Source of the DNA: a virus
Length of the DNA: 53,402 nt
Reading direction: 5' to 3' (one strand)
Virus record (IMG/VR): IMGVR_UViG_3300015264_000030
Location: 1-53,402 of that record
The notes under the pieces were generated by a model. The model was given only the letters and a program-made list of their open reading frames with translations, was not told the DNA's origin and searched no databases. This document shows, one piece after another, positions 1,002-49,913 of this stretch (within the stretch, counting starts at the first letter, position 1; each line of letters starts with the position of its first letter). The translations under genes and the position numbers were made by a program.

Positions 1002-1010
1002 GTGTAATAG
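1002..1010 (+). promoter_or_regulatory. Candidate late promoter motif GTGTAATAG
   Basis: GTGTAAT core 13 nt before the ATG of the collagen-like fibre gene, followed by AAAGGA, a fair Shine-Dalgarno. Variant of the GTGTAATTA motif found before many + strand genes here. No convincing -35 box. Confidence 0.5.
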
Positions 1011-1021
1011 TCTAAAGGATT

Positions 1022-3289
1022 ATGGCATTTGATTCAACAATTAGGCTCAAGCAGATAAATCAAACAGAACTGGCTAGTTTTGTTTCTGGGTTATTCTCCT
1101 CATTTCCTTGGCCTAATATTTCTGGCAATCTTATTCCCTCTGGTTCGGGAGTCTATAACGTCGGTTCTTCTATTTTTCCTTATGCACAACTTTTTGCCAA
1201 CCAACTTAATTTAGCATCTGGTAGTGGAATAAATTTTGGTAATACATCTTTTAATGCCTATACTTCGGGTGGAAATGCTTATGTAAATGTTGGAGGAATA
1301 TCAATCACTTCAAGTGGGGATGCAATTTATATCCAAGGCCCAAGTGGTGTTGCAGGGCCAAGTGGAGCTACTGGTCACACAGGAGCTACTGGTGTTGGAG
1401 TTACGGGTATCAATTATGATACATCAAGCCATATTCTTACTTTCTATCTTTCCAACGGTAATTCAAGTGGATTTAATTTTCAGGGATTGAGTGGTTCCAC
1501 TGGTGTTTCTGTAACTGGGTTTTTTCAGAGCGGTAATTTTATTTTTCCTCAATTTGACCATCTTAAAGGAACTGGTTCTCCTATATCTTTAATAGCTGGC
1601 CCAATCGGGCCACCGGGTTCGATTGAATTAGATTTTCAACAAAGCGGAACTGGATATATCAATTCTCCTTATCTGCCGCTTAATACTTTTCCAAATCAAA
1701 CGATTATCAATCCTTATTACAGTGGTAATGTCGCGCCAGATATTACTTTTATGAGGGGTATGGCTTATACCATTGATTCAAGCGGACTCAATACTCATGC
1801 TTTGACAAGTGGTGATTTGCAGTCTCTTTCTGGCTTTTTCTCTGGACAAAATATTCCATTCCATGTTGGCGACCAGACGAATTATTACAAGGATTCTAAT
1901 AATACTGGATATTGGAGATTCGTATTTTTTCCAAGTGGAACCCCTACTGGTGTCTATTCAACTAGCCATGACCCCTACAATATTTTTCCTGCGGCGGAAG
2001 CTGAGACAACTAATTTTTCTGTATATGGAAATAAATTGATTAACAATCTTTATCGAACAAAAATTTCTTTCTCTACCAGTTTTGCTTCTCAGAATTTATA
2101 TCAATATGGATTTATTGTCTATTCTCTTGGTCAAGAAGACACAACAACTGATACCGTCCTTCCAGCTTCATCTACATCCACTGGTTATGCAGTTGTCTTG
2201 GGTAATGCGATATTTGCTTCTCAAGCTGGCCCTGCTGGTTTGCAGGGTATTCCCGGCCCATCAGGTCAGATTGGCCCAACTGGACAAATTGGCCCAACTG
2301 GTTTAAGAGGCAATGACGGTGCTGATGTTGTCGGCTATATCTATTCTGGAAGTGGTAGTGCCATCTATATTCAATTTCAATTAGCGAATGGAATTCAACA
2401 GCCTTGGATTCCCTTGCCTCAAGGTGGGCCATCTGGTTCAGTCGGGCCAGCAGGGAGTATTTCAAATCATTTTTCTGGAAATTTCAATACGGGATATGTT
2501 TATGGAAATGATATTATTGTTTTTTATGCTGGTTCTAGTTTTGTAAATACAGGTTCTAATGTAAGTGGAATTTATCCACCAAATTCTCCGTGGCAAATGC
2601 TTTGTCAGTCTGGTGCTATTGGAGTTACGGGGGCAACTGGAACAACAGGAGCGACTGGCCCTGCCGGTTCTTTATCAAATCATTTTTCAGGAGTATATTC
2701 TGGCATCTATGGTTATCCAACGAATACAGTAGTTACTTATTCTGGTTCGAGTTTCATAAATACGGGCGCGACGACTATTAGTGGAGTGGCTCCAACTGGT
2801 TCTCCTTGGCAGACTTTGGCATCTGGTTCAGTCGGGCCACAAGGTTTATCTGGTGTTCCCGGCCCACTTAGACCACAAAATTTTTTCAGTTTGGTTTATG
2901 GTAATGGAACAGGTTCAGCGAGTAGTTCTGTTCTTTTAGACCCTAATTTGTATGATATGTATTCCCTTCAAATTAGTTCCGGCATATCTGGAAACGCTGC
3001 CGGTGTGAATCCAGTGGCGGTCAATATTTCAGGCAATAATTTTGCAACAGGACAATCAATAATTATTAAAATTAGGAATATCAATGTTCCTCAAAACAAT
3101 GGAACTAGCTCTCAGTTGTTCAATTTACAATCAGTTAGTGTAAATGGTAGTGGTGTGAACATTAAATGGCCTGCAAATCAGTATTCATTTCCAAACAGCG
3201 GGTCAGCCAATATTTACACGATTTTGAGGTTTCCTGACGAAACGGGGTCAGCTTCCTTCTATGGAAACTACTCTAATCCGTATTTTTAA
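1022..3289 (+). CDS. Collagen-like, carbohydrate-binding-like fibre/adhesin protein
   Basis: A 755-aa virion fibre candidate. Collagen-like Gly-X-Y runs lie at about residues 106-129, 192-200, 402-434, 468-479, 531-549 and 602-616. Two related modules of about 50 residues (480-530 and 550-600) each begin with SNHFSG and contain Y/V..GSSF.NTG and SPWQ. They resemble the CBM5/12-type modules that alternate with collagen repeats in many phage fibres. The N-terminus MAFDSTIRLKQINQTEL is nearly the same as that of the protein at 15063, so it is probably a shared attachment peptide. The rest is rich in SG and TG dipeptides. It sits between terminase and portal, an unusual place for a fibre; it could decorate the capsid or the tail. 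The start is supported by the AAAGGA ribosome site. Confidence 0.75.
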   Translation: MAFDSTIRLKQINQTELASFVSGLFSSFPWPNISGNLIPSGSGVYNVGSSIFPYAQLFANQLNLASGSGINFGNTSFNAYTSGGNAYVNVGGISITSSGDAIYIQGPSGVAGPSGATGHTGATGVGVTGINYDTSSHILTFYLSNGNSSGFNFQGLSGSTGVSVTGFFQSGNFIFPQFDHLKGTGSPISLIAGPIGPPGSIELDFQQSGTGYINSPYLPLNTFPNQTIINPYYSGNVAPDITFMRGMAYTIDSSGLNTHALTSGDLQSLSGFFSGQNIPFHVGDQTNYYKDSNNTGYWRFVFFPSGTPTGVYSTSHDPYNIFPAAEAETTNFSVYGNKLINNLYRTKISFSTSFASQNLYQYGFIVYSLGQEDTTTDTVLPASSTSTGYAVVLGNAIFASQAGPAGLQGIPGPSGQIGPTGQIGPTGLRGNDGADVVGYIYSGSGSAIYIQFQLANGIQQPWIPLPQGGPSGSVGPAGSISNHFSGNFNTGYVYGNDIIVFYAGSSFVNTGSNVSGIYPPNSPWQMLCQSGAIGVTGATGTTGATGPAGSLSNHFSGVYSGIYGYPTNTVVTYSGSSFINTGATTISGVAPTGSPWQTLASGSVGPQGLSGVPGPLRPQNFFSLVYGNGTGSASSSVLLDPNLYDMYSLQISSGISGNAAGVNPVAVNISGNNFATGQSIIIKIRNINVPQNNGTSSQLFNLQSVSVNGSGVNIKWPANQYSFPNSGSANIYTILRFPDETGSASFYGNYSNPYF
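2459..2821 (+). repeat. Duplicated carbohydrate-binding-like module inside the fibre gene
   Basis: Two copies, about 2459-2611 and 2669-2821, encode homologous modules separated by a collagen-like spacer. Shared residues include S-L/I-SNHFSG, the GSSF-NTG core and P-x-SPWQ near the end. The copies have diverged, so the duplication is not recent. Confidence 0.7.
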
Positions 3290-3299
3290 GTATAATAGT
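3288..3299 (+). promoter_or_regulatory. Candidate promoter, TATAAT immediately before portal start
   Basis: TATAAT at 3291-3296 overlaps the end of the fibre gene and ends 5 nt before the portal ATG. It matches the GTGTAATAG pattern with one change. If used, the mRNA would be leaderless. Confidence 0.4.
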
Positions 3300-3301
3300 T
3301 T

Positions 3302-5422
3302 ATGAAAAAGAAGTCATCACAGAAGTTAAAGGCTTTACACCAGCTTGGGGCAACAGTTGGTGCGCCAAAGTCTCTGGAAGATAAGAAAGCAAATAAAAAA
3401 ACAGGTAAGAGCGCGTCTGGACTACCAGAAATGGTTTCAGAGGCATCTGAGCGTTCTTCAAATCAAACCAGCATGAGACGAGATGTTGCTGGTTCAATAG
3501 AAAGGACAGATAGATTTGCAAATATTGATAATGGACTTGTTCCTTTTCGTAATTCAAATGCCATCTATGGCCCAAGTGCTTCTGCCGTTGATATTCGTGA
3601 TGCGGTTATCCTTTGCCAAAAGTGTTATTGGAACTTTGCCCTATTCAGGAACATTATTGATTTAATGACTGAGTTTTCCATTGATGATATTCTTTGGAAA
3701 GGCGGAAATAAGCAATCAAGAGCTTTCTTTGGGGCCTTATTCAATAAAATTGGCATTTGGGATTTGCAGGATAAATTTTTCCGTGAATACTATCGTAGCG
3801 GAAATGTATTCATCTATCGTTTTGATGCCGATGTTAAGCCGAATGATGTTAAAAAAATCATTCAAACATTAGCTTCCAAAAATACCAGCGTAGGTAATCC
3901 AGTAATAGAACAAAATCAACCAATGGGTGCGCCAGAAAATCACATGGGTTATCCTACCGGTAATCCAAAAGATAAAACTGGAGACTTTAATCCATTGAAT
4001 CAGGATGGAGATATTAAGCTTGAAATTGAGCCAATGAAAATGCCCGCACGTTATATTATTCTTAACCCAGCAGACATAAATATGTTGGGGACTGCAAATT
4101 TCTCATACGGTATTTACTATAAAGTCTTGACTGAATATGAAGTCTCACGTTTGCGTAATCTACAAAGTGAAGAAGATATTGAAGTCTATAATTCGCTTCC
4201 AAAATTTACCCAAGACCAGATTAGGGCTGGTGTGCGTAGTGTTTATATTGCATTGGATACCAAGAAAGTGAAAATTGTTTTTTACAAAAAACAAGATTAC
4301 GAGCCTTTTGCTGTTCCGATGGGATACCCAGTTTTGGAGGATATTAACGCTAAAATTGAAATGCGTAGAATTGATATGGCTATTACAAGAACAATGCAAC
4401 AGATTGTTCTTCTTGTTACCTGTGGCGCTGAACCCGATAAAGGCGGTATTAACCAAAAGAACATTGATGCCCTAAAGAAAATTTTCCAGAATCAATCGGT
4501 AGGAAGGGTATTAGTCGCTGACTATACGACTAAAGCAGATTTTATTATTCCCAAAATTGGAGAACTACTTGACCCAAAGAAATATGAAATCATTGATAAA
4601 GATATTAACATCGGTTTGAACAATGTATTCTTGGGGGGTGAAAAGTTTGCCAACCAACAAAAGAAAGTCGAAATTTTTGTTAAGAGGCTCGAACAAGCTA
4701 AAAAGGCTTTCTTGGAAATTTTCCTTATTCCTGAAATAAAGAGAATCTCAAAATCTTTGAATTTCAAAAACTATCCAACTCCTTATTTTGACGAAAATCA
4801 ATTTAAGGATGATGTTTCGTATGCCAAAGTCTATACGCAACTCGTTTCGATGGGCGTCCTTACTCCCGAACAAGGAATTGAAGCCATACAAAATAATAGG
4901 CTTCCAGAAGCAGATGCAATGGAAACAGCACAAGAAGCATATAAGGAATCAAGAGGGAAGGGACTTTATGTTCCACTTATTCCGCCTCCAATGGCTAAAG
5001 GTGACGGCCCAAGTGGTGCGCCTGCTTCCTCTGGTCGTCCAGTAGGTTCAACCGGCCCACAAGGAACCAAGAAAATTACCCCAATGGGAGCCAAGGGTAG
5101 CGAAACGATGGAATTTAGCGTAACAAAGCTAAGAGATAATGTGCTTATTGCCCAAGAAGCCGAAAAAAGTATCGTATCTTTCCTCAAAAAGAAATACAAG
5201 GTAAGGAAGCTTAATGAATTGCAACAAAGCGTCGCATCTGAAATTTTAACGGTCATTGTAGCAAACGAAGAAAGCAATAATTGGACAAGTGTTGCAAAAG
5301 AATACTGCGAAAATCCAGTTGACAAGAACAAAGAACGCGTCAATAACGTATTAAAAGTGGGAGCAGAACATCAAGTTGATAATTATTTGGCTTCTTTATT
5401 ATTTGCTTCAACAAAAACTTAA
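3302..5422 (+). CDS. Portal protein
   Basis: A 706-aa protein read as the portal, the dodecameric ring at one capsid vertex through which DNA is packaged. Supporting signs are its place after the terminase, its typical length, a conserved-looking block at about residues 85-175 (AVILCQKCYWNFALFRNIIDL followed by aromatic-rich helices), and a long helical C-terminal half (IDKDINIGLNNVFLGG, then KKVEIFVKRLEQAKKAFLE) like the stem and wing of other portals. Near the C-terminus a Gly/Pro/Ser-rich linker (GPSGAPASSGRPVGSTGP) separates a final charged helical domain. There is no Shine-Dalgarno; TATAAT lies just before the ATG. The family assignment is by architecture and context, with no motif as decisive as those of the terminase. 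Confidence 0.8.
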   Translation: MKKKSSQKLKALHQLGATVGAPKSLEDKKANKKTGKSASGLPEMVSEASERSSNQTSMRRDVAGSIERTDRFANIDNGLVPFRNSNAIYGPSASAVDIRDAVILCQKCYWNFALFRNIIDLMTEFSIDDILWKGGNKQSRAFFGALFNKIGIWDLQDKFFREYYRSGNVFIYRFDADVKPNDVKKIIQTLASKNTSVGNPVIEQNQPMGAPENHMGYPTGNPKDKTGDFNPLNQDGDIKLEIEPMKMPARYIILNPADINMLGTANFSYGIYYKVLTEYEVSRLRNLQSEEDIEVYNSLPKFTQDQIRAGVRSVYIALDTKKVKIVFYKKQDYEPFAVPMGYPVLEDINAKIEMRRIDMAITRTMQQIVLLVTCGAEPDKGGINQKNIDALKKIFQNQSVGRVLVADYTTKADFIIPKIGELLDPKKYEIIDKDINIGLNNVFLGGEKFANQQKKVEIFVKRLEQAKKAFLEIFLIPEIKRISKSLNFKNYPTPYFDENQFKDDVSYAKVYTQLVSMGVLTPEQGIEAIQNNRLPEADAMETAQEAYKESRGKGLYVPLIPPPMAKGDGPSGAPASSGRPVGSTGPQGTKKITPMGAKGSETMEFSVTKLRDNVLIAQEAEKSIVSFLKKKYKVRKLNELQQSVASEILTVIVANEESNNWTSVAKEYCENPVDKNKERVNNVLKVGAEHQVDNYLASLLFASTKT

Positions 5423-5423
5423 T

Positions 5424-5942
5424 ATGTTAAATCGTAATAATTTAGGACAAGTAATCGCCGATGATTTATCGGGAAAAATATTTGGAAAATTAACTGCAAT
5501 AAAACGAGTAGAAAACAAGAACCAAAGACCGGCTTTTTTATGTAAGTGTTCTTGTGGCAATGAAAAAGTCGTAATGAGTCAATCTTTGAGAAATGGCACG
5601 GTAAAAAGTTGTGGATGCCTTTTGAAAAGACATGGGAAAAATCATTTTTCATGGGAAGGTTATGAAGAAATTTCATTGAGTTTTTTTTCTGTTATTGAAA
5701 AGGGGGCAAAAACAAGAAATTTGGCATTTGATATTTCTATTAAAGAAATTTGGCATTTATTTTTGTTCCAAAAAAGAAAATGCGCTTTATCTGGAATGGA
5801 TTTACGCTTTCAGAGTCAAAATAGCGAAAGAGACGGAACAGCATCATTAGACCGCATTGATTCTAGTAAGGGATATGCTCTTGATAATATCCAGTGGGTT
5901 CACAAAGACATAAATTGGTTAAAAAATAACTGGCCTCAATAA
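5424..5942 (+). CDS. HNH endonuclease, probably homing/free-standing
   Basis: A 172-aa nuclease. The N-terminal part has a Cys-rich DNA-binding motif (C40-x-C-x-C44-G, then SCGC at 62-65) of the kind found in phage homing endonucleases. The HNH core runs from C120 (CALSGMDL) through SLDRIDSSKGY (141-151), N155 and IQWVHKDIN (156-164). I chose the ATG at 5424 rather than the in-frame one at 5376 because it follows the portal stop in the recurring TAATATG junction and avoids a 47-nt overlap. The gene lies between two structural genes and breaks the virion cassette, as expected of a selfish element. Expected activity is site-specific nicking or cutting of DNA lacking the insertion. Confidence 0.85.
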   Translation: MLNRNNLGQVIADDLSGKIFGKLTAIKRVENKNQRPAFLCKCSCGNEKVVMSQSLRNGTVKSCGCLLKRHGKNHFSWEGYEEISLSFFSVIEKGAKTRNLAFDISIKEIWHLFLFQKRKCALSGMDLRFQSQNSERDGTASLDRIDSSKGYALDNIQWVHKDINWLKNNWPQ

Positions 5943-6740: not shown

Positions 6741-6750
6741 GTGTAAATTA
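6741..6750 (+). promoter_or_regulatory. Candidate late promoter motif GTGTAAATTA
   Basis: Preceded by AA, ends 7 nt before the ATG at 6758. One extra A relative to the consensus GTGTAATTA. Confidence 0.45.
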
Positions 6751-11127: not shown

Positions 11128-11137
11128 GTGTAATTAT
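11128..11137 (+). promoter_or_regulatory. Candidate late promoter motif GTGTAATTAT
   Basis: Exact consensus copy 19 nt after the preceding stop; followed by CAGGG and the ATG of the protease-scaffold gene at 11146. No -35 box. Confidence 0.55.
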
Positions 11138-11145: not shown

Positions 11146-12732
11146 ATGTTGGCTAGAGATTTACCATTTCATCAAATTTTTTCATCAGTCGTGCGACCAG
11201 TTGTTTCAGAAGAAAAAGACAAACTGCTTGCAATCGCTTCGATGGATGAACTTGCGAAATTTATTCCAAATATTGATGCCACGAGAAATATTGATTTGCT
11301 TCCTATCGCGTTTGATGCCTGTGTTGTAAATAGAGGAAATAAAAACGGCGATATAATGAACACTGATACTGGTCTTTCTACTTATAAGACTTTTATTCAT
11401 AAATTTATTGATACCGAACACAATCGTCAAAAAGTTATTGGAGTTATTTTAACTGCGTCTCTTAGTGAATTTGGTTCTAATAAAATTATCACGGAAGATG
11501 ACGTGAAAGGCACGGATAAGCCCTTTAACATTACTCTTGGTGGAGTTTTGTGGCGTGCGGTAAATGGTGATTTGTGCGATTTAGTTGAAGACTCAAATGA
11601 CCCCGATTCAGATAACTACCGTAAAGTTTCTGCAAGTTGGGAACTTGGTTTTTCTGGATACGACGTAGTGGAATTTGAACAGGGTGACAAAAGTTTATCG
11701 GATGGCAAGATTATTAAAGACCCAGACTTTATTAAGAAGATTGAAAAGTATCTAAAATCTTCTGGCGGTTCAGGTATGAAAGATGGAAAGAATTATTACC
11801 GTATGCCAAATGAAAGTGTAATAGCTATGGGTATAGGTCTTACTGAGAAACCAGCAGCGGAAGTTCAAGGAATTGTAGTAAAAACTGAGCATAAAGATGA
11901 TTCTGCTAAAGCAACATTAGATACTGCTGACGCTGTAATTAAAAAAAATATTATTTCCACAGCAGAAAATATTTCACAAATACCAGAAAACAATGTAAAA
12001 AGAGAAAGAAGCACGATTATGAAAATCAACTCCATCGAAGACATTACGGACGATAATTTGAAACAGTGTTCGGCATCAGTTGTCACTGAATTCATTCAAT
12101 CGGAACTCAAGAAGGCTAGTGAGACATTTACGACTGAAAAGACTCAGCAAGCTACGGCTGCTCAGAAACTTCAGGAGACAACTGTATCTCTTAATCAGAA
12201 GCTCGATGAAATGAAGGTTTCGCTTGATGCGATGGCAACAGAAAAGACAAACCGCGACAAGGTTGACGCTTTCAATGCTCGTATGAGCGAAACCGTTGCA
12301 TCCTATGAATTGCCAGATGATGTTGCAAAGATTGTTGCCGATGATTTGAAGAATATCGCTACTGCCGAAGCTTATGCAGTTTGGCAGACGAAGGCAGCTA
12401 CACTTTTGAAGCCATTTTCTAAGATTGCTATTGCGGCAGCAAAGAAAGCCAAGGCTGATGATGAAGAAGCTATGGCTAAGAAGAAAAAGGATGAAGACGA
12501 AGCCAAGGCTGCTCTTGAAAAGAAGGGCGATAAAAAAGACGATGATGACGCAGATGATAAGAAAAAGGGAGCTAAGGCTTCCGAAGCTGTGGCATCCGTA
12601 ATCGAAGAAGTCCTTGATAATGCTGACAAAGAAAAGGGCGGATTGCCAAACGGTTCAAGTGCAGCAGCACCAAATTTGAAGGAAAAGTTTAAGACTGCCT
12701 TCGCGGAAGAAAATTTCGTTATCAAACAGTAA
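11146..12732 (+). CDS. Prohead protease fused to scaffold-like C-terminal domain
   Basis: A 528-aa capsid maturation protein. The N-terminal half (about 1-200) resembles phage prohead serine proteases. A candidate catalytic His is H92 (DTEHNRQKVIGVI) and a candidate Ser is S164 (VSASWELGF), both in typical strand contexts. Residues from about 290 to the end form a highly charged region with coiled-coil character (Ala/Lys/Glu/Asp runs such as KKKKDEDEAKAALEKKGDKK), as expected of an internal scaffold. The protease would cut scaffold and perhaps capsid protein during head maturation. Decoration and major capsid genes follow directly. An in-frame ATG at 12019 may give a separate scaffold product. 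GTGTAATTAT and a weak AGG ribosome site support the start. Confidence 0.8.
   Translation: MLARDLPFHQIFSSVVRPVVSEEKDKLLAIASMDELAKFIPNIDATRNIDLLPIAFDACVVNRGNKNGDIMNTDTGLSTYKTFIHKFIDTEHNRQKVIGVILTASLSEFGSNKIITEDDVKGTDKPFNITLGGVLWRAVNGDLCDLVEDSNDPDSDNYRKVSASWELGFSGYDVVEFEQGDKSLSDGKIIKDPDFIKKIEKYLKSSGGSGMKDGKNYYRMPNESVIAMGIGLTEKPAAEVQGIVVKTEHKDDSAKATLDTADAVIKKNIISTAENISQIPENNVKRERSTIMKINSIEDITDDNLKQCSASVVTEFIQSELKKASETFTTEKTQQATAAQKLQETTVSLNQKLDEMKVSLDAMATEKTNRDKVDAFNARMSETVASYELPDDVAKIVADDLKNIATAEAYAVWQTKAATLLKPFSKIAIAAAKKAKADDEEAMAKKKKDEDEAKAALEKKGDKKDDDDADDKKKGAKASEAVASVIEEVLDNADKEKGGLPNGSSAAAPNLKEKFKTAFAEENFVIKQ
12019..12732 (+). CDS. Candidate internal start: stand-alone scaffold protein (237 aa)
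   Basis: In frame with the protease-scaffold gene. The ATG at 12019 (Met292) is preceded by a purine-rich stretch (AGAGAAAGAAG) 7-18 nt upstream that could pair with 16S rRNA. Codon choice and base composition change at this point: upstream is AT-rich, while downstream prefers AAG, GCC/GCT and GAA-rich codons like the strongly expressed capsid genes. Nested protease/scaffold genes (lambda C/Nu3) are the precedent. The product would be an acidic/basic coiled coil starting MKINSIEDITDDNLK. Inference; needs protein evidence. Confidence 0.45.
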   Translation: MKINSIEDITDDNLKQCSASVVTEFIQSELKKASETFTTEKTQQATAAQKLQETTVSLNQKLDEMKVSLDAMATEKTNRDKVDAFNARMSETVASYELPDDVAKIVADDLKNIATAEAYAVWQTKAATLLKPFSKIAIAAAKKAKADDEEAMAKKKKDEDEAKAALEKKGDKKDDDDADDKKKGAKASEAVASVIEEVLDNADKEKGGLPNGSSAAAPNLKEKFKTAFAEENFVIKQ

Positions 12733-13388: not shown

Positions 13389-14564
13389 ATGCAAATCCAA
13401 CTTAAAAACACGCCAGAGCAAATCGAGTTAATCAAGGCTATGGGTTCGTCCAAGCAGTCTGTCGCTCGTGAAGCTACCGAGGCCATCGCAGCGTTCCTCG
13501 CACCAGTTCTCAAGAAAGTCTTGATGACTGCTGGAACTGCGTCCACAATTTATCGTGATATTGAATACGATGAAGATTCTGACCCATCCATCCCACTCGA
13601 CTTGTTTTACAATGAAGGTGCTGGATATGTTTCTGTATGGAGCCAGTCACAAGCTGGTGGTCTTCCAACCTCGCAAGTTGCAGGTATGGCTGAAATCAAG
13701 TTCGGAACCTACCGCCTTGACTCTGCCGTATCCTTCAATAAGAAATATGCGCGCAAGAGCCGTTTGGATGTTGTTTCCAAGGCTATTGAACGCATGGTCA
13801 ACGAAGTCCTTATTAAACAGGAACGTAATGCTTGGGCTGTTATCTTGAAGGCATTGGCCGAAGCTTACACCCCAATCTACGGTGCTGGTCAAACTGTCAC
13901 GACCCAATACGGCCACACTCTTGCTGCTGCACAGGCAGGTAGCTTTCTGTTGGCAGACTTGAACAACTTGATTGTTCGTATCAAAAGAATCAATGAATCA
14001 TACAGCGCAAATACGCCTGTTCAGCCTTACTCACACGGTATTACCGACTTATATGTTTCCCCTGAAATCAAGGCGATGATTCGTGCGTTTGCTTATAACC
14101 CAATTAACACAAGCTCGTCTGACTCGACAGCTATCGGTGGTATTCGTGGTCAATTCCTTTCTGACAATCTCCGCGACGAGATTTTTAGAAGTGCAGGTAT
14201 GCAGAGTATCTACGGTGTTAACATTGTTGAACTCGTCGAATTCGGTGGAAACCAGAAGTATAACGTCTTGTTTGACCAGTTCGCTAAGTCCGGTAATTCG
14301 GCTTCGCAAGTTCAGGGTTCAAATGGTGCGGCTACTTGGTCAAGCTCATCCACACAGCAAGTCTGTGTCGGTATTGACAATACTCGTGGTGCGTTTGTTC
14401 GCCCTGTTGCAGTTCAGGCTGAATCTGGCGGCACGTTCTCCGTTCTTCCTGATGGTCAATTCGATATGTATGGTTCCCGTGTCCAGAAGGTCGGCTTCTA
14501 CGGTTTCCTCGAAGAAGGCCGCGTCTGTTTGGACGCTCGTTCGACGGTCGGTATTGTTGTCTAA
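13389..14564 (+). CDS. Major capsid protein (HK97-like)
   Basis: A 391-aa capsid protein candidate, with the length and position expected of an HK97-fold major capsid protein. A helical N-terminus (QIELIKAMGSSKQSVAREAT) is followed by an E-loop/P-domain-like region (YDEDSDPSIPLDLFYNEGAG, then KFGTYRLDSAVSFNKKYARK) and a long helix (VVSKAIERMVNEVLIKQERN). The C-terminal part (FDMYGSRVQKVGFYGFLEEGR) resembles the A-domain/P-domain end of other capsid proteins. Expression signals are the best in the window: a strong AAGGA site, distinctive codon choice and an intrinsic terminator directly after. It has few SG/TG dipeptides (two SG), unlike the appendage proteins. Confidence 0.9.
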   Translation: MQIQLKNTPEQIELIKAMGSSKQSVAREATEAIAAFLAPVLKKVLMTAGTASTIYRDIEYDEDSDPSIPLDLFYNEGAGYVSVWSQSQAGGLPTSQVAGMAEIKFGTYRLDSAVSFNKKYARKSRLDVVSKAIERMVNEVLIKQERNAWAVILKALAEAYTPIYGAGQTVTTQYGHTLAAAQAGSFLLADLNNLIVRIKRINESYSANTPVQPYSHGITDLYVSPEIKAMIRAFAYNPINTSSSDSTAIGGIRGQFLSDNLRDEIFRSAGMQSIYGVNIVELVEFGGNQKYNVLFDQFAKSGNSASQVQGSNGAATWSSSSTQQVCVGIDNTRGAFVRPVAVQAESGGTFSVLPDGQFDMYGSRVQKVGFYGFLEEGRVCLDARSTVGIVV

Positions 14565-14641: not shown

Positions 14642-14652
14642 TATAATAAGGA
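14642..14652 (+). promoter_or_regulatory. TATAAT box followed by AAGGA ribosome site
   Basis: TATAAT at 14642-14647 runs directly into AAGGA at 14648-14652, 9 nt before the ATG at 14662. It lies between the capsid terminator and the next gene, so a fresh promoter is expected here. Confidence 0.45.
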
Positions 14653-15045: not shown

Positions 15046-15055
15046 GTGTAATTAC
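15046..15055 (+). promoter_or_regulatory. Candidate late promoter motif GTGTAATTAC
   Basis: Exact GTGTAATTA copy, 7 nt before the ATG at 15063. It heads the fibre cluster. Confidence 0.55.
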
Positions 15056-15573: not shown

Positions 15574-17352
15574 ATGAAAAGTTTATTCAAACAAATTCAG
15601 GCGGGTGAATTAAATATTACTACTGGAAAGGTGGGAATAGGAGTCATCAATCCTCAATATATTTTAGATATAAATGGCTCTATCGGTAATTCCCTAGGCA
15701 TGAATACGGGTAGTTATATTGATTTAGGGAATAGTATTTTTGTTGATAACACTGGCGCTATTTCTTTTGACTATAATCAAAAAATTTTATTTGGTAATTG
15801 GTCTGGTAATGGATTTTCTCTTGATGGGCCTATTACAATAAGTGGAAATAATGTTATTACTGAAGATGAGACTGGTCAATTTTATTCATCAAGTAATCCA
15901 TCTGGATTTATTACAGGAAACCTGAATCTTTATTCTCTTGATTCCAAAGTCGTTCACATTATAGGAAATGAAATAATTAGTGGGAATAAAACTTTTTCAA
16001 GTCAAGTTACGGCCAATGGAGTTAAGTCAAATGTATTTCAAGATTCTTCTTCAATCAACGGTATTATTCTTAATTTGGGGATATTGACTACTGGTAATGA
16101 TTTATCTACTGATATAACAATAGATATGGCTCATGGTAGATTATCTAGGACGGGTGTTGTCCATCTTGATTGGTTTAATAATAAATTAAGTGGAAATTGG
16201 ACTGCTGAATCTTTAATTATCAGTGGTCAACCAGTATTAACTGGTTCAACCATTTCATTTATTACCACTGGACAAACTGGACAATTTGCATCTAATAGTA
16301 ATTTGTCAGCAACAGGAAGTTCTTTATCAACTTGGACAGGAAATTCTACTGGACTTTACTATCCTCGTAATTCTAATCCTTCTGGATTTATAACTAGCGG
16401 TCAAACTGGAATATTTGCTATAGATTCTAATGTAGTGCATATTACAGGGGATGAAAATATTCATGGTCTAAAGACATTTTCAGCGATTCAATCCGATTAT
16501 TGGACGGACATATACAATAATAAAGTTTCAATCGGTGGGTATCTTATAGATTCCAATAATAATATTTCTGTAGCTTGGGACGGCAGAGTATTACAAGATT
16601 CAAATATTACAACAAGTTTAGATTGGAGCAACAGAACATTACAAGATGGAAATGGAATAATAAGTCTAGATTATAATAATAGAAGATTACTAACAACTGA
16701 TGGCAATCCAATTCTTGATTGGCAAAATGGATACATAAGTGTTTTTCAAAATCTAAATGTAGATGGAATCGCTAGTTTTTCAAATCAACTATTGATTTCT
16801 GGTAATGATATTACTACATATTTTTATCCTAAAAATAATAATCCTTCTGGTTATATTACGAGCGGTCAAACTGGAATATTTGCTTCTACTGGAAACTTAG
16901 CTTCAACTGGAAATTTTATTTCTTCTTGGACGGGTGTATCAACTGGACTTTACTATCCTCGTAATTCTAATCCTTCTGGATATATTACGAGCGGGAATGG
17001 GTGCATTATAATCCAAAGCCAAAAAATAAATTTCGCCCAGACTGGAAACTATAGCCTATTCACAGTTCCAAGCGGTCAATTATTTTTGATTGATACAATG
17101 GAAGTCATAACGACCAATATCACCTCCCCGAATCAGCCGCCATATGTTTCATTCGGAAATACATCCAGTTTTGGAAGTTATACTTCTTCAATACAGACCA
17201 CTTCAAATTCCCAATATGCTCGTCATATTTTTGACAATCCGCAGAACGCGATTATTTCTGGAATCATTTTGACCGCATCCATTACAGCCGCCTCGACAGC
17301 GACCGTGCAATCTGGATATTTATTATACAAGGGATTTTTTACTAATTCATAA
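15574..17352 (+). CDS. Long tail-fibre-like protein with repeated NPSG(F/Y)ITSGQTG modules
   Basis: A 592-aa fibre candidate. The N-terminus KVGIGVINPQYILDINGSIG (about 19-38) is the common beta-helix module of phage fibres (GIGT-P-Y-LDV-G). HIIGNEIISGNKTFSSQ and HITGDENIHGLKTFSAI (about 130 and 290) are copies of another well-known fibre repeat. YYPRNSNPSGFITSGQTG and variants recur several times. The last 110 residues differ (QTGNYSLFTVPSGQLFLID...) and form a probable receptor-binding or trimerisation tip. Near-identical DNA in the repeats would favour recombination and length change. The ATG follows the previous stop by one nucleotide and depends on coupling. Confidence 0.75.
   Translation: MKSLFKQIQAGELNITTGKVGIGVINPQYILDINGSIGNSLGMNTGSYIDLGNSIFVDNTGAISFDYNQKILFGNWSGNGFSLDGPITISGNNVITEDETGQFYSSSNPSGFITGNLNLYSLDSKVVHIIGNEIISGNKTFSSQVTANGVKSNVFQDSSSINGIILNLGILTTGNDLSTDITIDMAHGRLSRTGVVHLDWFNNKLSGNWTAESLIISGQPVLTGSTISFITTGQTGQFASNSNLSATGSSLSTWTGNSTGLYYPRNSNPSGFITSGQTGIFAIDSNVVHITGDENIHGLKTFSAIQSDYWTDIYNNKVSIGGYLIDSNNNISVAWDGRVLQDSNITTSLDWSNRTLQDGNGIISLDYNNRRLLTTDGNPILDWQNGYISVFQNLNVDGIASFSNQLLISGNDITTYFYPKNNNPSGYITSGQTGIFASTGNLASTGNFISSWTGVSTGLYYPRNSNPSGYITSGNGCIIIQSQKINFAQTGNYSLFTVPSGQLFLIDTMEVITTNITSPNQPPYVSFGNTSSFGSYTSSIQTTSNSQYARHIFDNPQNAIISGIILTASITAASTATVQSGYLLYKGFFTNS
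16348..16386 (+). repeat. Direct repeat, copy 1 (39 nt)
   Basis: Identical to 16942-16980; encodes the TGLYYPRNSNPSG motif of the fibre protein. Confidence 0.9.
16396..16419 (+). repeat. Direct repeat, copy 1 (24 nt)
   Basis: Identical to 16861-16884; encodes SGQTGIFA. Confidence 0.9.
16861..16884 (+). repeat. Direct repeat, copy 2 (24 nt)
   Basis: Identical to 16396-16419, within the same fibre gene. Confidence 0.9.
16942..16980 (+). repeat. Direct repeat, copy 2 (39 nt)
   Basis: Identical to 16348-16386, 594 nt downstream in the same frame. Confidence 0.9.
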
Positions 17353-17356
17353 AATT

Positions 17357-18820
17357 ATGAGCGTGTTTATAGGAGGATATTTTGGAGGATATAAATTTTC
17401 GTTAATTAGCGCAAACGCTCCTTCATTGATACTCAATACATCTGGTTCAATAATAACATCTGGGCATTTGATAGATGCTAATTTCATTACAACAACTTAT
17501 AGTAGAGTTATATCTGGAACACAGTATTTAGTTCAAGTAGTTCCTCAACAATATAACTTTTGGGGGAATACTCCGATTGTTAATTTATCAACGGATAATA
17601 CTGGAATCGCAACCATTGATAATCTTGGGAACGTAAGTTATGTGAATACTGGACATTTTAATGTAATAGCAAATACAAATTCTAATTCTTATTATAGTGG
17701 TCAAACTGCTATGTTGCCATTGACTAATATAAGTGGGGGAAGCGGATTAAGTTCTGTAAGCGTATTTGCTCCAGACGCAATTAGCATATCTAATCACGTT
17801 TTAATCATTTATAATACTAATTCTAACGATAGCATTAACTTAAAAAATTATTATACGGGTCACAGACCACTATTTTCAGGAGCGAATATTTTAGGTATTT
17901 CGTGTCCGTCTGGTCAAGAAAGCATATCTTCATCTGGATTTACGGGAAGCATAAGACAGCCGATAATAAATTACCTTACTGGAGTCTCTGGAACAAAACA
18001 GATACGTTATGCCGTTATGATGTGCGATATTCCAACTAGAATATCCGATAATGCACTGGCTCCTTCCATATTTTTCCCATATGGATATAGTGTATCTTAT
18101 GAACTTTATCTTTCTTATTGGAGATTAGGATTGAGAAGCGGATATGATTATAACCAGCAAAATAATCACTTTAATTTGGCACAATTCCAAAATAATACCA
18201 TTTTGACTTCATATATCAATTTCGGTTCATATAAAGATTGCACTTCATATATTGATAAAGTCACCTCAAATCAAACAGGAATTTATTTAACTGGTTCGCA
18301 AAATACTGGATATTATATCGAAGATATGGGGGCTTTTATCGGTTCTCTTACATATTTTTCGGGAAGAAATCTGCAACCATTGATTGAAGCTTTCCCATCT
18401 GTCAATTATACTTATCATTCAAGCAATCAATCTCATATAAATACTGGAAATAATTTAGCTGGATATTGTTCTTGGGGCAATGATGGTGGAATGGGCCAGT
18501 ATTATGCTATTGACGGAACTGTCAAATGGGGTCAGAATAATAACTGGTATCTAATCTTAACGGTTGATAGTTTTAATGGACAAAGAAATGGTGGAGGAAA
18601 TTTCATTGATTGGTTTAGTAGCGGGGCTTTTGGTGGAACTGGATATAATAATTGTCCAGTTGGCGCAGTTGGAAATGTCGAAGAACCTTTGCTTGGTCAT
18701 TCATGTCTTTCGGGATATTTTAATTTATGGCAAACTGGTTATCCATTTATTGAATGTGCTTGGCAATCAAGGCAAACGCCTTATTTTGCTGCATTTGGTG
18801 ACCCATTTTGTGTGATATAA
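17357..18820 (+). CDS. Virion-associated protein: Big2-like domain plus gingipain/caspase-like (TIGR03790-type) domain
   Basis: A 487-aa protein. Residues about 24-125 look like a Big2 immunoglobulin-like domain (STDNTGIATIDNLGNVSYVNTG). Residues about 137-487 match the pattern I know from TIGR03790, a family related to gingipain/C25 caspase-like folds: LIIYNTNSNDSINLKNYY (149-166), an I-YAVMM-DIPTRI strand (216-229), DNALAPS (231-237), LAGYCSWGNDGG (367-378), WYLILTVDSFNG (397-408), and the end with GAVGNVEEPLLG (436-447), GYPFIECAWQSRQTPYFAAFGDP (461-483). Candidate catalytic Cys/His residues (C371, H360, H448) are not assured. The gene lies among fibre genes, so I infer a virion enzyme or adhesin acting on host surface protein. 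The N-terminus has no signal peptide. Confidence 0.65.
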   Translation: MSVFIGGYFGGYKFSLISANAPSLILNTSGSIITSGHLIDANFITTTYSRVISGTQYLVQVVPQQYNFWGNTPIVNLSTDNTGIATIDNLGNVSYVNTGHFNVIANTNSNSYYSGQTAMLPLTNISGGSGLSSVSVFAPDAISISNHVLIIYNTNSNDSINLKNYYTGHRPLFSGANILGISCPSGQESISSSGFTGSIRQPIINYLTGVSGTKQIRYAVMMCDIPTRISDNALAPSIFFPYGYSVSYELYLSYWRLGLRSGYDYNQQNNHFNLAQFQNNTILTSYINFGSYKDCTSYIDKVTSNQTGIYLTGSQNTGYYIEDMGAFIGSLTYFSGRNLQPLIEAFPSVNYTYHSSNQSHINTGNNLAGYCSWGNDGGMGQYYAIDGTVKWGQNNNWYLILTVDSFNGQRNGGGNFIDWFSSGAFGGTGYNNCPVGAVGNVEEPLLGHSCLSGYFNLWQTGYPFIECAWQSRQTPYFAAFGDPFCVI

Positions 18821-18830
18821 GTGTAATTAT
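18821..18830 (+). promoter_or_regulatory. Candidate late promoter motif GTGTAATTAT
   Basis: Exact consensus immediately after the previous stop; only 4 nt before the ATG at 18835, so transcripts would be leaderless. Confidence 0.55.
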
Positions 18831-20317: not shown

Positions 20318-20470
20318 ATGTGTAATTATCAATATGTCAAAACGACTCAACTTTATTTAAGTGGACAAGATGTGACTGGATTAGCATTTGAATATCCTTC
20401 AATGGGAGTCGCAATGAGTGGACTATTACAAGATGCTCAAGACTTGATTTCTGGAAAAAAATTGTTCTAA
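20318..20470 (+). CDS. Small Ser-Gly-containing protein (50 aa), start uncertain
   Basis: An ORF below the usual size cut-off: MCNYQYVKTTQLYLSGQDV to DLISGKKLF. The body (TTQLYLSGQDVTGLAFEYPS) has the same composition as the phage's fibre proteins, and the frame fills an otherwise empty gap. Its ATG overlaps the GTGTAATTAT motif, so transcription from that motif would begin downstream of this start. The ATG at 20334, properly placed after the motif, opens a different frame that stops after eight codons (MSKRLNFI). A -1 shift at the AAAA run would join MSK to TTQLYLSG. Either a sequencing indel, a frameshift or an upstream-initiated mRNA could explain this. Confidence 0.45.
   Translation: MCNYQYVKTTQLYLSGQDVTGLAFEYPSMGVAMSGLLQDAQDLISGKKLF
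20320..20329 (+). promoter_or_regulatory. Candidate late promoter motif GTGTAATTAT
   Basis: Exact consensus copy, 4 nt before the ATG at 20334 and about 155 nt before the gene at 20485. Confidence 0.5.
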
Positions 20471-20484: not shown

Positions 20485-20823
20485 ATGGCAAATTCTTTCG
20501 ACATTTGTATCGAACAGGGAGCCTCGCTGAATATTTCGCTGGTAGCCAGTGACTCAAGCGGGAACGCTATGAATCTGTCTGGTTATAGTGTTAGGGGTCA
20601 AGTAAAATATAGTTTTGGAAGCACGGGAATCATTCTGAACTTATCTCCAAAAGTTGACACAAGTTTCATAAGTGGAATTATCAATATTTCCGTCCCACCA
20701 GAAAATACGAGCGGACTGCCAATTACCAAAGCAGTCTATGACATAGAGGCTTTCAATAGTGGGGATTATTGTTTCAAAGTTATTAAAGGATACGCGAATA
20801 TTTTTCCGCAGGTTTCTTTCTAA
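20485..20823 (+). CDS. Small baseplate/tail beta-domain protein (BppU-N-like)
   Basis: A 112-aa protein beginning FDICIEQGASLNISLVASDSSG, then MNLSGYSVRGQVK and YDIEAFNSGDYCFKVIKGYANI near the end. This layout (QG-S-----, L-GY-----, YDIE----G------G----P-V) matches the small N-terminal beta-sandwich of phage baseplate upper proteins and related virion proteins. It stands alone rather than fused to a fibre. The downstream gene starts in a TAATATG junction and is likely co-translated. The role is inferred from this resemblance and context. Confidence 0.6.
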   Translation: MANSFDICIEQGASLNISLVASDSSGNAMNLSGYSVRGQVKYSFGSTGIILNLSPKVDTSFISGIINISVPPENTSGLPITKAVYDIEAFNSGDYCFKVIKGYANIFPQVSF

Positions 20824-20824
20824 T

Positions 20825-21214
20825 ATGGATATTGATGTTACAGTTAATACACAACCAATCAATGTTTCTGCAACGGTTTGTCCAGCAGTAAATATCAATG
20901 TTTCCACAATTCCCTCTTTTAATATTGAGGTTGGTATTAGAGGAATTCAAGGGCCTCCGGGTTCTGGTTGCTCTGGTTCATCTACCGGAGTAAATTTCCT
21001 CTACAATATCCCTAGTGGATTTGATAATTATTTGATTGGATTTCCTTTGAGTTTTTCTTCAATTCCTTTTGTTGAAACTACGTTGGAATTGCCCTCCGGC
21101 TCGAACAATTTATACACTTTCGCTACTCAAAATATCACGACAACTGGCTTTAATGTGGTATTTTCGGAGACAATTCAAGAAACTGGCTTAATTCTCAATA
21201 TCAAGTGTAATTAA
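20825..21214 (+). CDS. Short fibre/adhesin with collagen-like hinge and H-lectin-like tip
   Basis: A 129-aa protein. The ATG at 20825 is preferred to 20759 because it follows the previous stop in TAATATG and removes a 65-nt overlap. The N-terminal 45 residues are a repetitive beta strand region (INVSATVCPAVNINVSTIPS). A short collagen-like hinge GIRGIQGPPGSG (about 38-49) follows. The C-terminal domain (FLYNIPSGFDNYLIGFPLSF, then ITTTGFNVVFSETIQETG) is related to the end of the protein at 15063. The layout of anchor, collagen-like hinge and small globular tip is typical of short tail spikes or fibres. Confidence 0.6.
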   Translation: MDIDVTVNTQPINVSATVCPAVNINVSTIPSFNIEVGIRGIQGPPGSGCSGSSTGVNFLYNIPSGFDNYLIGFPLSFSSIPFVETTLELPSGSNNLYTFATQNITTTGFNVVFSETIQETGLILNIKCN

Positions 21215-25909: not shown

Positions 25910-26767
25910 GTGGAAAAAATCTACAAAACAATATCAGAGATTGATGAATTAAAACTCATTTATTTTGAGATACTGGATGGTTTCAGCTATGATGTAGGCT
26001 CCTCTCTATACATTAGGCATTTTTCTGATAAAGAGAGTCATTTAGTGCTTCAAAAACGAATTGAATTATCTCGTTATTATGCTTCTGAGGGCGTCCCACA
26101 TGAATCTCAATTATTGTCTAATGCCATTGAAAATGAAGAATGGTCTGATGAAAAAGAAACTCAAATTCTAACTCTAAAGTATCTCATTTCTGATAATGAA
26201 AGAAATTTACCAAATATTCTATGGCAACAGCGTCCATTGATTGAGAATATAATCAAGCAAAAGAAAAATGAACTTGCAGAGCTTCTCTTTGAGAGGAAGC
26301 ATACTTTGGGTAGAAATATTGAAGATTTGGTTGATGAGGACGTTAATGATTTTGTTGTTTATTTATCTATTTTCAAAGATGCTAATTTGAAGAATCATAT
26401 TGATAAGACTTATGATGATTTCCAGCAATGGGAACCCACAAAAATATCAGAATTAAATAATATTCTCATATCTCAATATTCAAAATTTTCAGAAGATAAA
26501 ATTAAAGGTATCGCTATTCTCCCGATGTTCCTAAATAAGCTAAGTTATTCAAAAGATAATATCGGTTCATTTCTAAAAAGACCTGTGGCCGATTTATCTC
26601 ATCATCAGAGTTATCTCTTTTCCTTGGGCGTCCGAAATCTTAATATCTTGGGTTACGCCAAAGGAAATCCACCAGACTTGAGTTTGGAAGCAAAAATCCA
26701 AGATGTAATCCAGTGGTATGACCTTCAATACTCGCTGAATATTGCCAAGAAAAACCAGCAAGAATAG
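25910..26767 (+). CDS. Probable tail assembly chaperone 2
   Basis: A 285-aa helical, charged protein with a GTG start, one nucleotide after the previous stop (TAATGTG, a variant of the usual TAATATG). Like its neighbour it has no SG or TG dipeptides and sits before the tape measure. In lambda-like phages the second chaperone is made by a ribosomal frameshift. Here the ORF is in the +1 frame relative to its neighbour, but no slippery site was identified and separate coupled translation is simpler. Ends with TAG. Confidence 0.5.
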   Translation: MEKIYKTISEIDELKLIYFEILDGFSYDVGSSLYIRHFSDKESHLVLQKRIELSRYYASEGVPHESQLLSNAIENEEWSDEKETQILTLKYLISDNERNLPNILWQQRPLIENIIKQKKNELAELLFERKHTLGRNIEDLVDEDVNDFVVYLSIFKDANLKNHIDKTYDDFQQWEPTKISELNNILISQYSKFSEDKIKGIAILPMFLNKLSYSKDNIGSFLKRPVADLSHHQSYLFSLGVRNLNILGYAKGNPPDLSLEAKIQDVIQWYDLQYSLNIAKKNQQE

Positions 26768-26773
26768 TGTAAT
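26767..26773 (+). promoter_or_regulatory. Candidate late promoter motif GTGTAAT
   Basis: GTGTAATG overlapping the stop of the chaperone gene; 20 nt before the tape measure ATG at 26794. Confidence 0.45.
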
Positions 26774-34591: not shown

Positions 34592-36235
34592 ATGACAACA
34601 GGAATATTCGTAACATACGATACAACGACGTTGAATCCAACACCGTTAGTGAACTATTCGCGTCAGCCGGTCAATTTCGGATATATCTATGGATATAATA
34701 CGGATATTGCTTTAGATGGTTTTTATACTGGAATCACCACCACTGGTGCGGCGATTTCTTACCTAACTGGAGTTTTTGCAAATCAATTCAAGGGTCTTAC
34801 TGTTACCGACGACCAAAGCAATATACTTTATCAATGGACGGGCGTTACTGTCGAATCAATCAATTTAGATACAAACCCATATTTTCAAGGCTCTTTTGTC
34901 AAATATTCTGTAAAATTGAAATCTTTTGATGTGCCTAGTGGTATTGTTGACCCATCCAATGAATATTCATTTAATCAAAATGATGATGGTTCTGTAAATG
35001 TCAATCATAAAATAAGTGCTAGGGCAGCTAGAAATATTAGTGGAGCTTTTCAAAATACAATTAGTTTCGTTAGACAGTTCACGGGACAAGACCCATTTTC
35101 AAATTGCGCGCCATACCTCGTCCCTAGTGGCAGTGGAATATTATTAAGCATCTCTGAGAATATCAATCGTGCTGATGCGATTTATTCTGTCAATGAGGTG
35201 TATAAATATAATACCGGAATATCGGCCCCTTATGTTAAAATTACTTCCATAGAAATTTCTGAAAGTCTTGACGCTGAATTTAGAACCATAGAACACACGA
35301 CAAAGATTCAGGGTTCTCCCGTTAATAATAATCTAAACTCTATTATTACAAATAATTTAAGTTATGGACTATTGGCCGATATTCAAAATGAATATGGATT
35401 CTTTATTTCTAATTGGGTAAAAAATACTTATTCAGCTAATGTAGATTCCGGTGCAGCCACAGTTGAAATCAAAGTGGGATATATGTCTGGTGCAAATCCA
35501 TCTGGATTTTTTGATTATGTTGTAAATTGTGATAAAGATTCTTTAGTTAATACCGAAGATTGGAAAGTAGAAGGAGAATTTAGATGTTTTGGCCCATTAG
35601 ATTATAGGTCAAATCAATTAACGGCTTTCAAACAGGCAAATAGCGGAAGTGATTGGCGAGCTTATCTTACTGGATTGATTACCAGTTCGCCTGTCTTTTC
35701 TGGCAATCATAATACTAGCATTATTTTCTCTCCAAATTGTGAAGTTCAGGTTATAGAAAATACTAAATTGGCGACACTTAGGATTTCTCTAGTTATGGAG
35801 AATGGTTATGAACCAACTGGATTTGATAATCTAAAATATTCTATTGATTCGACTCCTAGTAAATGGATTTATGAATTATTGCCTTCGGTCAATATCGAGG
35901 GTTCTTTCGTTATTCAAGATTTGCAAACTCAATCAATGGCAAAGCAAAAATTCTCTCTTGATGGAAAAGGAACTAACCCTGCGGCGGATTTGTCATTAGT
36001 AAGCGGATACTTAAATTCTTTAGCAAACATTTATGTTCTTTCTGGAACGCAAAATACAATGACCGCATTTTTAATTGGGGATGAAGTGATGACCGGGATT
36101 TATGACGTTAGCCGCTCAATAACATATCTTGGGAAAGACAATGGAATTAGCACGGGTCTTTTATCCTTACAAGCGATAGGAACAAATACGGCTTCAATTC
36201 CTGTTAGACCGGCGGGTTACAATTTTGGTTATTAA
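34592..36235 (+). CDS. Distal tail structural protein, possible paralogue of the preceding gene
   Basis: A 547-aa beta-rich protein. The block FVKYSVKLKSFDVPSG, the strand VNVNHKISARAARN and the segment YVKITSIEISESLDAEFRTIEHTTKIQGS run parallel to blocks in the protein at 32817 (FNYEIYSVDF, FNHSISFGLQ, DLSNSINMANDGTIDVSEKASTQGK). This suggests duplication. Position after the tape measure points to the tail tip or baseplate-like complex. Contains the NPSGFFDY motif also seen in fibres. Starts 5 nt after the preceding stop. Confidence 0.5.
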   Translation: MTTGIFVTYDTTTLNPTPLVNYSRQPVNFGYIYGYNTDIALDGFYTGITTTGAAISYLTGVFANQFKGLTVTDDQSNILYQWTGVTVESINLDTNPYFQGSFVKYSVKLKSFDVPSGIVDPSNEYSFNQNDDGSVNVNHKISARAARNISGAFQNTISFVRQFTGQDPFSNCAPYLVPSGSGILLSISENINRADAIYSVNEVYKYNTGISAPYVKITSIEISESLDAEFRTIEHTTKIQGSPVNNNLNSIITNNLSYGLLADIQNEYGFFISNWVKNTYSANVDSGAATVEIKVGYMSGANPSGFFDYVVNCDKDSLVNTEDWKVEGEFRCFGPLDYRSNQLTAFKQANSGSDWRAYLTGLITSSPVFSGNHNTSIIFSPNCEVQVIENTKLATLRISLVMENGYEPTGFDNLKYSIDSTPSKWIYELLPSVNIEGSFVIQDLQTQSMAKQKFSLDGKGTNPAADLSLVSGYLNSLANIYVLSGTQNTMTAFLIGDEVMTGIYDVSRSITYLGKDNGISTGLLSLQAIGTNTASIPVRPAGYNFGY

Positions 36236-36245
36236 GTGTAATTAT
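36236..36245 (+). promoter_or_regulatory. Candidate late promoter motif GTGTAATTAT
   Basis: Exact consensus immediately after the TAA of the preceding gene; an AAGG ribosome site and the ATG at 36262 follow. Confidence 0.55.
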
Positions 36246-48656: not shown

Positions 48657-48660
48657 AATA

Positions 48661-49146: not shown

Positions 49147-49157
49147 AATGTTTGTTT

Positions 49158-49166
49158 ATTATACCA
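49158..49166 (-). promoter_or_regulatory. Extended -10 promoter for the minus-strand operon
   Basis: On the minus strand TGGTATAAT, with TATAAT at 49158-49163, 11 nt before the ATG at 49146. The -35 region is weak, as is common with extended -10 promoters. Confidence 0.6.
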
Positions 49167-49202
49167 AATTAGAGTTAATTTATAGGAAAAAGTTCAAAAT
49201 TT

Positions 49203-49210
49203 GTGTAATA
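49203..49210 (+). promoter_or_regulatory. Candidate late promoter motif GTGTAATA
   Basis: In the divergent gap between the minus-strand operon and the HNH gene; 9 nt before the TTG start at 49220. Confidence 0.45.
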
Positions 49211-49219
49211 ATATACAGA

Positions 49220-49909
49220 TTGAAAAAGAAATACATAAAATGGACTCCCGAAGAAGAAGAAGCAATCAATGAACACTACGAAAAAGATGGAGCAGAATTC
49301 TGTGCTAAAATATTAAATAGACCACAAAAACACATTGTTACGAAAGCTTTTCATTTGGGGAAAAAATTCAATTATGGTCTGAATGGTGGCCTTAAAAAGT
49401 GCAAAAAGTGTCTAAATGACAAACCGCTAGAACAGTTTCCGAAAAATAAAAAAATAAAATCTGGATTGGATTCTTGGTGTAAGGATTGTCACAAAGCAAT
49501 CAACCATATTAAATACTTTAATAATCGTGAAAAAATTTGGAGACAGCAGTTAGATAGAAAAAGAAAGAACCCTAATTTAAGGATTTTGCAAGTTTTAAGA
49601 ACGAGAAATCATGCTGCCATGCAGGGCAGAACGAAAGACGAAACAACCAAGATTTTGTTAGGATGTGATTTAGACTTTTTTTGGAATTATTTAGAAAAAA
49701 AATTCAAAAGTGGTATGACCAAAGAAAACTATGGAAAAATTTGGGTCATTGACCATATTACTCCTTGCCGAGCGTTTAATTTAATTGAACCTTTGGAACA
49801 ACGTAAGTGTTTTCACTATTCCAATCTTCAACCTTTGTTTAAGCAAGAAAATGAATCCAAAGGAGATTTATTGCCAGATGGAACTAGAGCGAGGTTATTA
49901 AAAGTGTAA
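49220..49909 (+). CDS. HNH homing-type endonuclease with N-terminal HTH
   Basis: A 229-aa nuclease. The start is taken as TTG at 49220 (MKKKYIKWTPEEEEAI) because upstream in-frame codons overlap the opposite promoter and encode a hydrophobic sequence unlike the family. Residues 6-50 look like a Myb/SANT-type helix-turn-helix (WTPEEEEAINEHYEKDGAEF). C61-x2-C64 and C87-x2-C90 form a zinc-binding treble clef (CKKCLNDKPLEQFPKN...GLDSWCKDCHKA). The HNH core is VIDHITPCRAF (176-186; D178, H179), FHYSNLQPLFKQEN (198-211; N202, N211) and ESKGD. It lies between the minus-strand island and the giant structural gene. The codons around its TAA form the promoter-like motif of the next gene. Confidence 0.85.
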   Translation: MKKKYIKWTPEEEEAINEHYEKDGAEFCAKILNRPQKHIVTKAFHLGKKFNYGLNGGLKKCKKCLNDKPLEQFPKNKKIKSGLDSWCKDCHKAINHIKYFNNREKIWRQQLDRKRKNPNLRILQVLRTRNHAAMQGRTKDETTKILLGCDLDFFWNYLEKKFKSGMTKENYGKIWVIDHITPCRAFNLIEPLEQRKCFHYSNLQPLFKQENESKGDLLPDGTRARLLKV

Positions 49910-49913
49910 TTAC
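49904..49913 (+). promoter_or_regulatory. Candidate late promoter motif GTGTAATTAC
   Basis: Exact GTGTAATTA copy that includes the HNH stop codon (49907-49909); an AAAGG ribosome site and the ATG at 49931 follow. Confidence 0.55.

Follow-up and report, generated by a model that had tools for sequence, protein, structure and literature searches.

The late promoters of phage T4 carry the box TATAAATA. They consist of a single -10-type element without a -35 element, lie before late virion genes and are read by the host core polymerase together with a sigma2-type factor (the gp55/gp33/gp45 system; PMC2988020). In T4, the sigma2 protein (gp55) is separate from the sigma4 mimic (gp33) and the sliding clamp is needed; a gp55-gp33 fusion is not known in nature, and a review of the system raises the question of why there is no fused late sigma (PMC2988020). 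Another studied phage sigma, gp36 of phiEco32, is a protein of extracytoplasmic function (ECF) size, reported to lack region 4, that works with the host core polymerase at a single element before virion genes (tAATGTAtA), with no -35 element and with transcription starting 6-8 bp downstream (PMC8948821). Phage 7-11 gp47 contains region 4 and directs the host core polymerase to late genes through bipartite promoters (GTAAtg-(16)-aCTA; PMC8948821). Here we analyse IMG/VR virus record IMGVR_UViG_3300015264_000030, a linear stretch of 53,402 bp (the window, meaning the whole stretch) that contains the virion module of a tailed phage and in which a short motif, GTGTAAT, recurs before genes. We consider it likely that this late box, GTGTAA(T/A), is a single -10-like late promoter of a large, uncultured tailed-phage family, read by the host core polymerase carrying a phage-encoded, ECF-sized sigma factor.

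Exact GTGTAATTA occurs seven times in the window, always on the + strand, where 0.58 copies are expected, and none of 100 dinucleotide shuffles reached seven. The shorter GTGTAAT is found 11 times on the + strand and three times on the - strand. All but one of the + strand copies precede a gene start, the exception at 11816 lying within a gene, and all three - strand copies are antisense, inside genes. IMG/VR contains more than 600 relatives of the portal protein (gene at 3302..5422, + strand; weak portal hidden Markov model (HMM) matches), which served as the anchor for finding them; the top 80 share 45-72% identity with it. No match was found among 50,697 cultured-phage records. We determined 7-mer enrichment and strand counts in 80 related IMG/VR contigs, the best of those found via the portal. 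When the 40 nt upstream of predicted starts were inspected, much as the original prediction had proposed for the full genome, GTGTAAT was the most enriched 7-mer (159 copies versus 0.5 expected from gene bodies), and the motif lay 251 times on the structural-gene strand versus 46 times on the opposite one.

Within a set of 159 loci, 152 contain at least one late box and 323 of 403 GTGTAAT copies (80%) stand before an open reading frame (ORF), whereas the control 7-mers CTGTAAT, GTCTAAT, GTGTTAT, GAGTAAT, TTGTAAT, ATGTAAT and GTGAAAT do so in 6-17% of cases (for example, CTGTAAT 17/133, GAGTAAT 22/176 and TTGTAAT 17/285). These single-substitution controls show that the invariant core in relatives is GTGTAA with T, or more rarely A, as the next base; the flanking TTA of the window copies lies outside this core and is not conserved. 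The excess of copies in the window, the 7-mer enrichment and the distance from the controls rule out a chance origin of the box. A literature search for GTGTAAT as a term found no relevant paper among those listed.

The window boxes, all on the + strand, hold close and varied positions relative to the genes that follow (distances run from box start to start codon). GTGTAAT lies at 1002..1008, 20 nt before ATG 1022 of a tail-fibre-like gene (1022-3289, + strand), and a variant, GTGTAAA followed by TTA, lies at 6741..6747, 17 nt before ATG 6758. Copies extended by TA are found at 11128..11134 (18 nt before ATG 11146), 15046..15052 (17 nt before ATG 15063), 18821..18827 (abutting the stop of 17357-18820, 14 nt before ATG 18835), 21205..21211 (overlapping the stop of 20759-21214, 14 nt before ATG 21219) and 36236..36242 (abutting the stop of 34592-36235, 26 nt before ATG 36262). 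The tape-measure gene (ATG 26794, + strand) has GTGTAAT at 26767..26773, 27 nt upstream and overlapping the stop of 25910-26767. Near the right end, an HNH endonuclease-like gene (49220-49909) that starts with TTG has its own box at 49203..49209, 17 nt upstream, and its TAA stop codon forms part of the next TA-extended box (49904..49910), 27 nt upstream of the truncated final gene of the window (ATG 49931, + strand). For a further TA-extended copy (20320..20326), start assignment is uncertain. This box overlaps a 50-aa ORF at its mechanical start, and the next good gene is 20485-20823. The box probably serves that gene, in whose relatives the ATG is directly preceded by a box.

All ten box coordinates of the original prediction are correct; its list of six exact copies overlooked the one at 21205. 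Its description of boxes on the + strand just before gene starts holds, site 20320 being less clear, and the overlap with upstream stops that it noted is real at 21205, 26767 and 49904, with abutment at 18821 and 36236. The overlaps occur in different frames, and coding constraint is thus not the cause of the box.

The box is retained at orthologous genes. It precedes the orthologues of gene 20485 in 10/10, of gene 21219 in 8/8 and of the tape-measure gene in 5/5 of the relatives shown, in proteins only about 30-44% identical. The nearest relative, L008, has the box before its orthologues of 1022 (also at 20 nt), of 6758 (as GTGTAAT, at equal distance) and of 11146 (GTGTAAT, 14 nt before the ATG). 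For the protein encoded by 11146-12732, a collection search returned no relatives and a later tblastn search against the fetched loci returned 33.

We found no -35 hexamer over 209 gene families of relatives (TTGAC in 1), which show a faint T-rich stretch ~24 nt upstream. The best TTGACA match at the window boxes is 2-4/6, like random positions, with the sole exception of 1002 (5/6); the original prediction had likewise claimed that there is no -35. The distance from box start to ATG has a sharp peak at 14 nt (41/182 families), with six families below it and a tail to ~37 nt, and this edge is not seen for TATAAT or decoy boxes. Use of the box is block-specific. In a 133-kb relative (G001), the late box precedes 19/60 genes at 0-50 kb, the virion block, and 2/58 genes at 100-133 kb, versus 5/60 and 22/58, respectively, for sigma70-like promoters, among them a perfect TTGACA-17-TATAAT before 111543.

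These patterns bear on an alternative in which the promoter depends on a host sigma factor, or on host sigma70 aided by a phage activator. By direct comparison TGTAAT matches TATAAT at 5/6 positions, and the flanks of the box are AT-rich. However, TATAAT and GTATAAT stand before an ORF in only 25% and 35% of cases in the 159 loci, versus 80% for GTGTAAT, and TATAAT lacks the 14-nt edge. The box is kept across relatives that span 28-45% GC and probably have different hosts, and the early block uses sigma70-type promoters. In addition, sigma70 needs A at -11, where TGTAAT has G. We therefore regard a host-sigma reader as unlikely.

Box copies inside genes are avoided in six large relatives, both in sense (9 versus 21.8 expected from synonymous shuffles) and in antisense (8 versus 38.5), as expected if stray copies start transcripts. 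Antisense avoidance also suggests that the signal acts in DNA and so argues against a ribosome-binding or RNA-processing signal, a role to which the nearness of the box to start codons and the strong preference of the ATG for 14 nt might otherwise point. Beyond its sharp minimum the spacing tails off slowly, and where it is longer, genes frequently have their own purine-rich stretch. Some genes, among them the major-capsid candidate (13389-14564), lack the box but have AAGGAG-like sites. GTGTAA shows no complementarity to the anti-Shine-Dalgarno sequence. An RNA-level role is accordingly very improbable.

Assuming that transcription begins 6-8 bp downstream of the element, as it does in phiEco32 and as is predicted here, the ATG edge at 14 nt would make start site and ATG coincide in many genes; many late mRNAs are thus predicted to be near-leaderless, with no leader or one of a few bases. 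Where the ATG lies farther away, positions 14-17 from the box start are purine-rich. As a separate observation, back-to-back late boxes (TTTACAC or ATTACAC ... GTGTAAT) occur between divergent genes in G001 (62776-63370) and in another relative, L010 (+385 and -19823), apparently as bidirectional late promoters.

A candidate reader of the box is encoded by the relatives. An ORF of ~200-250 aa with a Sigma70 region 2 HMM match is present in 13/15 large records, and tblastn detects the gene (50-100% identity) in almost every locus that extends far enough upstream of the portal. The family is ~225 aa long and its gene lies 3-4.5 kb upstream of the portal region; in L008 it lies ~3 kb upstream, counted from the point that corresponds to window position 67. 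The gene occupies 862-1539 in L008 and 17239-17922 in G001. We infer that the window's own phage encodes this sigma as well. The search for a late sigma factor suggested in the original prediction thus led to a conserved gene, and in the parallel search for a phage RNA polymerase, no Rpb2-type beta subunit was found, with controls detected in 14/14 cases. This result, which speaks against a polymerase of the phage's own with such a subunit, makes the host core polymerase the likely partner of the sigma. No box was found directly before the sigma gene in the loci inspected, which suggests that the sigma is probably first expressed from sigma70-type promoters.

PF04542 (region 2) matches 47/47 aligned sigma proteins (best 1.5e-9) and Pfam region 4 matches 0/47. 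A Pfam-based view of the protein as gp55-like and lacking sigma4 was revised in the light of structure prediction. The AlphaFold model (mean predicted local distance difference test score 75, domains mostly 80-90) places sigma2 at residues 1-77 and a C-terminal domain at 145-223. The latter resembles sigma4 structures, including SigD (Z 8.8, root-mean-square deviation 1.9 Å over 62 residues) and region 4 of sigmaE (Z 8.5), with deviations ranging from 1.9 to 2.7 Å, although in small helical domains a Z of about 8 is no proof on its own. The leading Foldseek matches of the model are sigma factors or polymerase complexes, at modest E-values (best 5e-3). The C-terminal domain is thus predicted to have a sigma4-like fold. 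Between the two domains lie five conserved cysteines (85, 88, 97, 104 and 107), which probably form a metal site.

The sigma has no match in cultured phages, in plasmids or, by sequence, in the PDB. The only relative found among 84,980 bacterial and archaeal genomes (L131, NZWA01000041.1) comes from a Flavobacteriales metagenome-assembled genome, where a 77-kb contig carries it; this could be a hint to the host or a mis-binned phage; as the contig is possibly a stray in its bin, we did not use it for host assignment.

Compared with the systems described above, the functional likeness to T4 drawn in the original prediction stands: a single -10-type element without -35 before late virion genes and, as proposed here, a sigma2-type factor on the host core. 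The analogy does not extend to the components. The core is GTGTAA(T/A) and not TATAAATA, both sigma domains, the sigma4-like one by prediction, reside in one protein here, and hhalign detected no similarity between gp55 and the sigma family (probability 0.2%, E 0.36), a weak test with a single sequence on one side. The bacterial-type clamp PF02768 was absent in 8 partial records with controls working, in a search that did not include PCNA-like clamps. phiEco32 gp36 is alike in size, proposed partner, proposed target genes, single element and lack of a -35, but its element differs, it was reported without region 4 (PMC8948821), and hhalign again detected no sequence similarity (probability 0.1%). 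With different boxes, no detectable sequence similarity and a predicted sigma4-like domain, this sigma system fits neither gp55 nor gp36. Phage 7-11 gp47, with its region 4, parallels the predicted sigma4-like domain and the proposed direction of the host core polymerase to late genes, but we see no second promoter element here. Cellular ECF sigmas (SigE, SigD, SigL and SigW) are the closest PDB folds, from which the phage protein differs by the five-cysteine linker inserted between the domains and by target promoters without a -35.

Further sigma-like ORFs were seen in single large relatives, at G001:102820-103449 (regions 2 and 4) and, in the 178-kb relative G016, at ~94585-94794; one of these ORFs, of ~286 aa, has a strong region 2 match. 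The existence of such ORFs raises the alternative that another phage factor, such as the G001 or the G016 protein, reads the box. Not many records contain them, while box and portal-linked sigma occur throughout, but most records are fragments and absence from them is weak evidence. We judge this alternative improbable, marginally more so than a host-sigma reader.

Taken together, GTGTAA(T) is probably the signal at which a novel type of phage-encoded sigma starts transcription, redirecting the host polymerase late in infection. Early genes would be transcribed from ordinary TTGACA/TATAAT promoters. Once accumulated, the sigma, with its sigma2 domain, five-cysteine linker and sigma4-like domain, would bind the host core polymerase, which would then be redirected to the GTGTAA boxes before virion genes and start transcription ~7 nt after the box. 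We infer the reading of the box by the sigma, the start site and the late timing; the sigma-to-box step follows from the conservation of both throughout the family, the single-box architecture and the published phiEco32 and T4 systems. Box statistics, conservation, lack of a -35, block-specific use and the sigma gene's presence and conservation were read from the DNA itself, and the sigma fold is a prediction. The proposal of a phage-specific, single-box late promoter made in the original prediction thus finds strong support in strand bias, position, conservation at orthologues, avoidance in genes, confinement to the virion block and the missing -35.

Several points weigh against this model. 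The window is cut off on the left before the expected position of the sigma gene, so that the link between sigma and box is drawn from relatives. No -35 element was found, although this is what a sigma4-like domain would ordinarily recognise. Other sigma-like ORFs in some records could read the box, and the 178-kb relative has the box less frequently. Finally, the original prediction had proposed comparing box density in coding regions with that upstream of genes; avoidance in the genes of the six large relatives agrees with a promoter, but the genes of the window show no such depletion (1 copy versus 1.4 expected).

The sigma may be a fused late sigma of the kind that the T4 review asks about. 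In a bolder version, which we consider possible but doubtful, it would be a one-protein late sigma (sigma2, cysteine-rich linker and a sigma4-like domain that no longer reads DNA, like a natural gp55-gp33 fusion), and about half of the late genes would be translated from mRNAs whose 5' end lies at the AUG or only just ahead of it, making them leaderless or nearly so. The system provides a way to test why the late sigma domains of T4 sit on two different proteins and to what extent late phage mRNAs can do without a leader. It would add a further family to the known sigmas and, to the known -10 specificities, one with G where sigma70 needs A. It would also make the transcription programme readable (sigma70-type early, GTGTAA late) in a phage family that comprises over 600 environmental contigs and has no cultured representative in the collection searched, and late operons could be annotated from sequence alone.

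The original prediction had listed five TATAAT boxes as possible weaker or host-read relatives of the motif. The boxes exist, but the one at 14642..14647 (+ strand), before gene 14662, belongs to a separate conserved class. Orthologues of gene 14662 keep TATAAT with a Shine-Dalgarno sequence and lack GTGTAA, on which grounds we rejected this box as a late-box variant; comparison with relatives suggests that this is a second conserved promoter class inside the virion block. Gene 14662 follows the major-capsid candidate, and the late box is absent there. At the TATAAT box of the portal gene (3291), some nearer relatives have TATAAT-like boxes and farther ones have GTGTAAT.

Elsewhere in the window, an HNH/endonuclease VII-like gene (5376-5942) overlaps the end of the portal gene, and a glycosyltransferase island occupies 44.2-49.1 kb on the - strand. 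No tRNA genes were found in the window. The proteins of 1022 and 15063 resemble each other at the N-terminus, each aligning with one and the same stretch of L008 (57% over 44 residues); this common N-terminus is perhaps a module by which fibre proteins attach to the virion. In the 133-kb relative, the early block (L093/L094; G001 97.5-133.6 kb) encodes adenylosuccinate synthetase, IMPDH/GMP reductase and dCMP deaminases. The PHROG of this adenylosuccinate synthetase (phrog_1211) is annotated '2-aminooxy adenylosuccinate synthetase', and the early-block enzymes could possibly serve the synthesis of a modified, 2-aminoadenine-like base.

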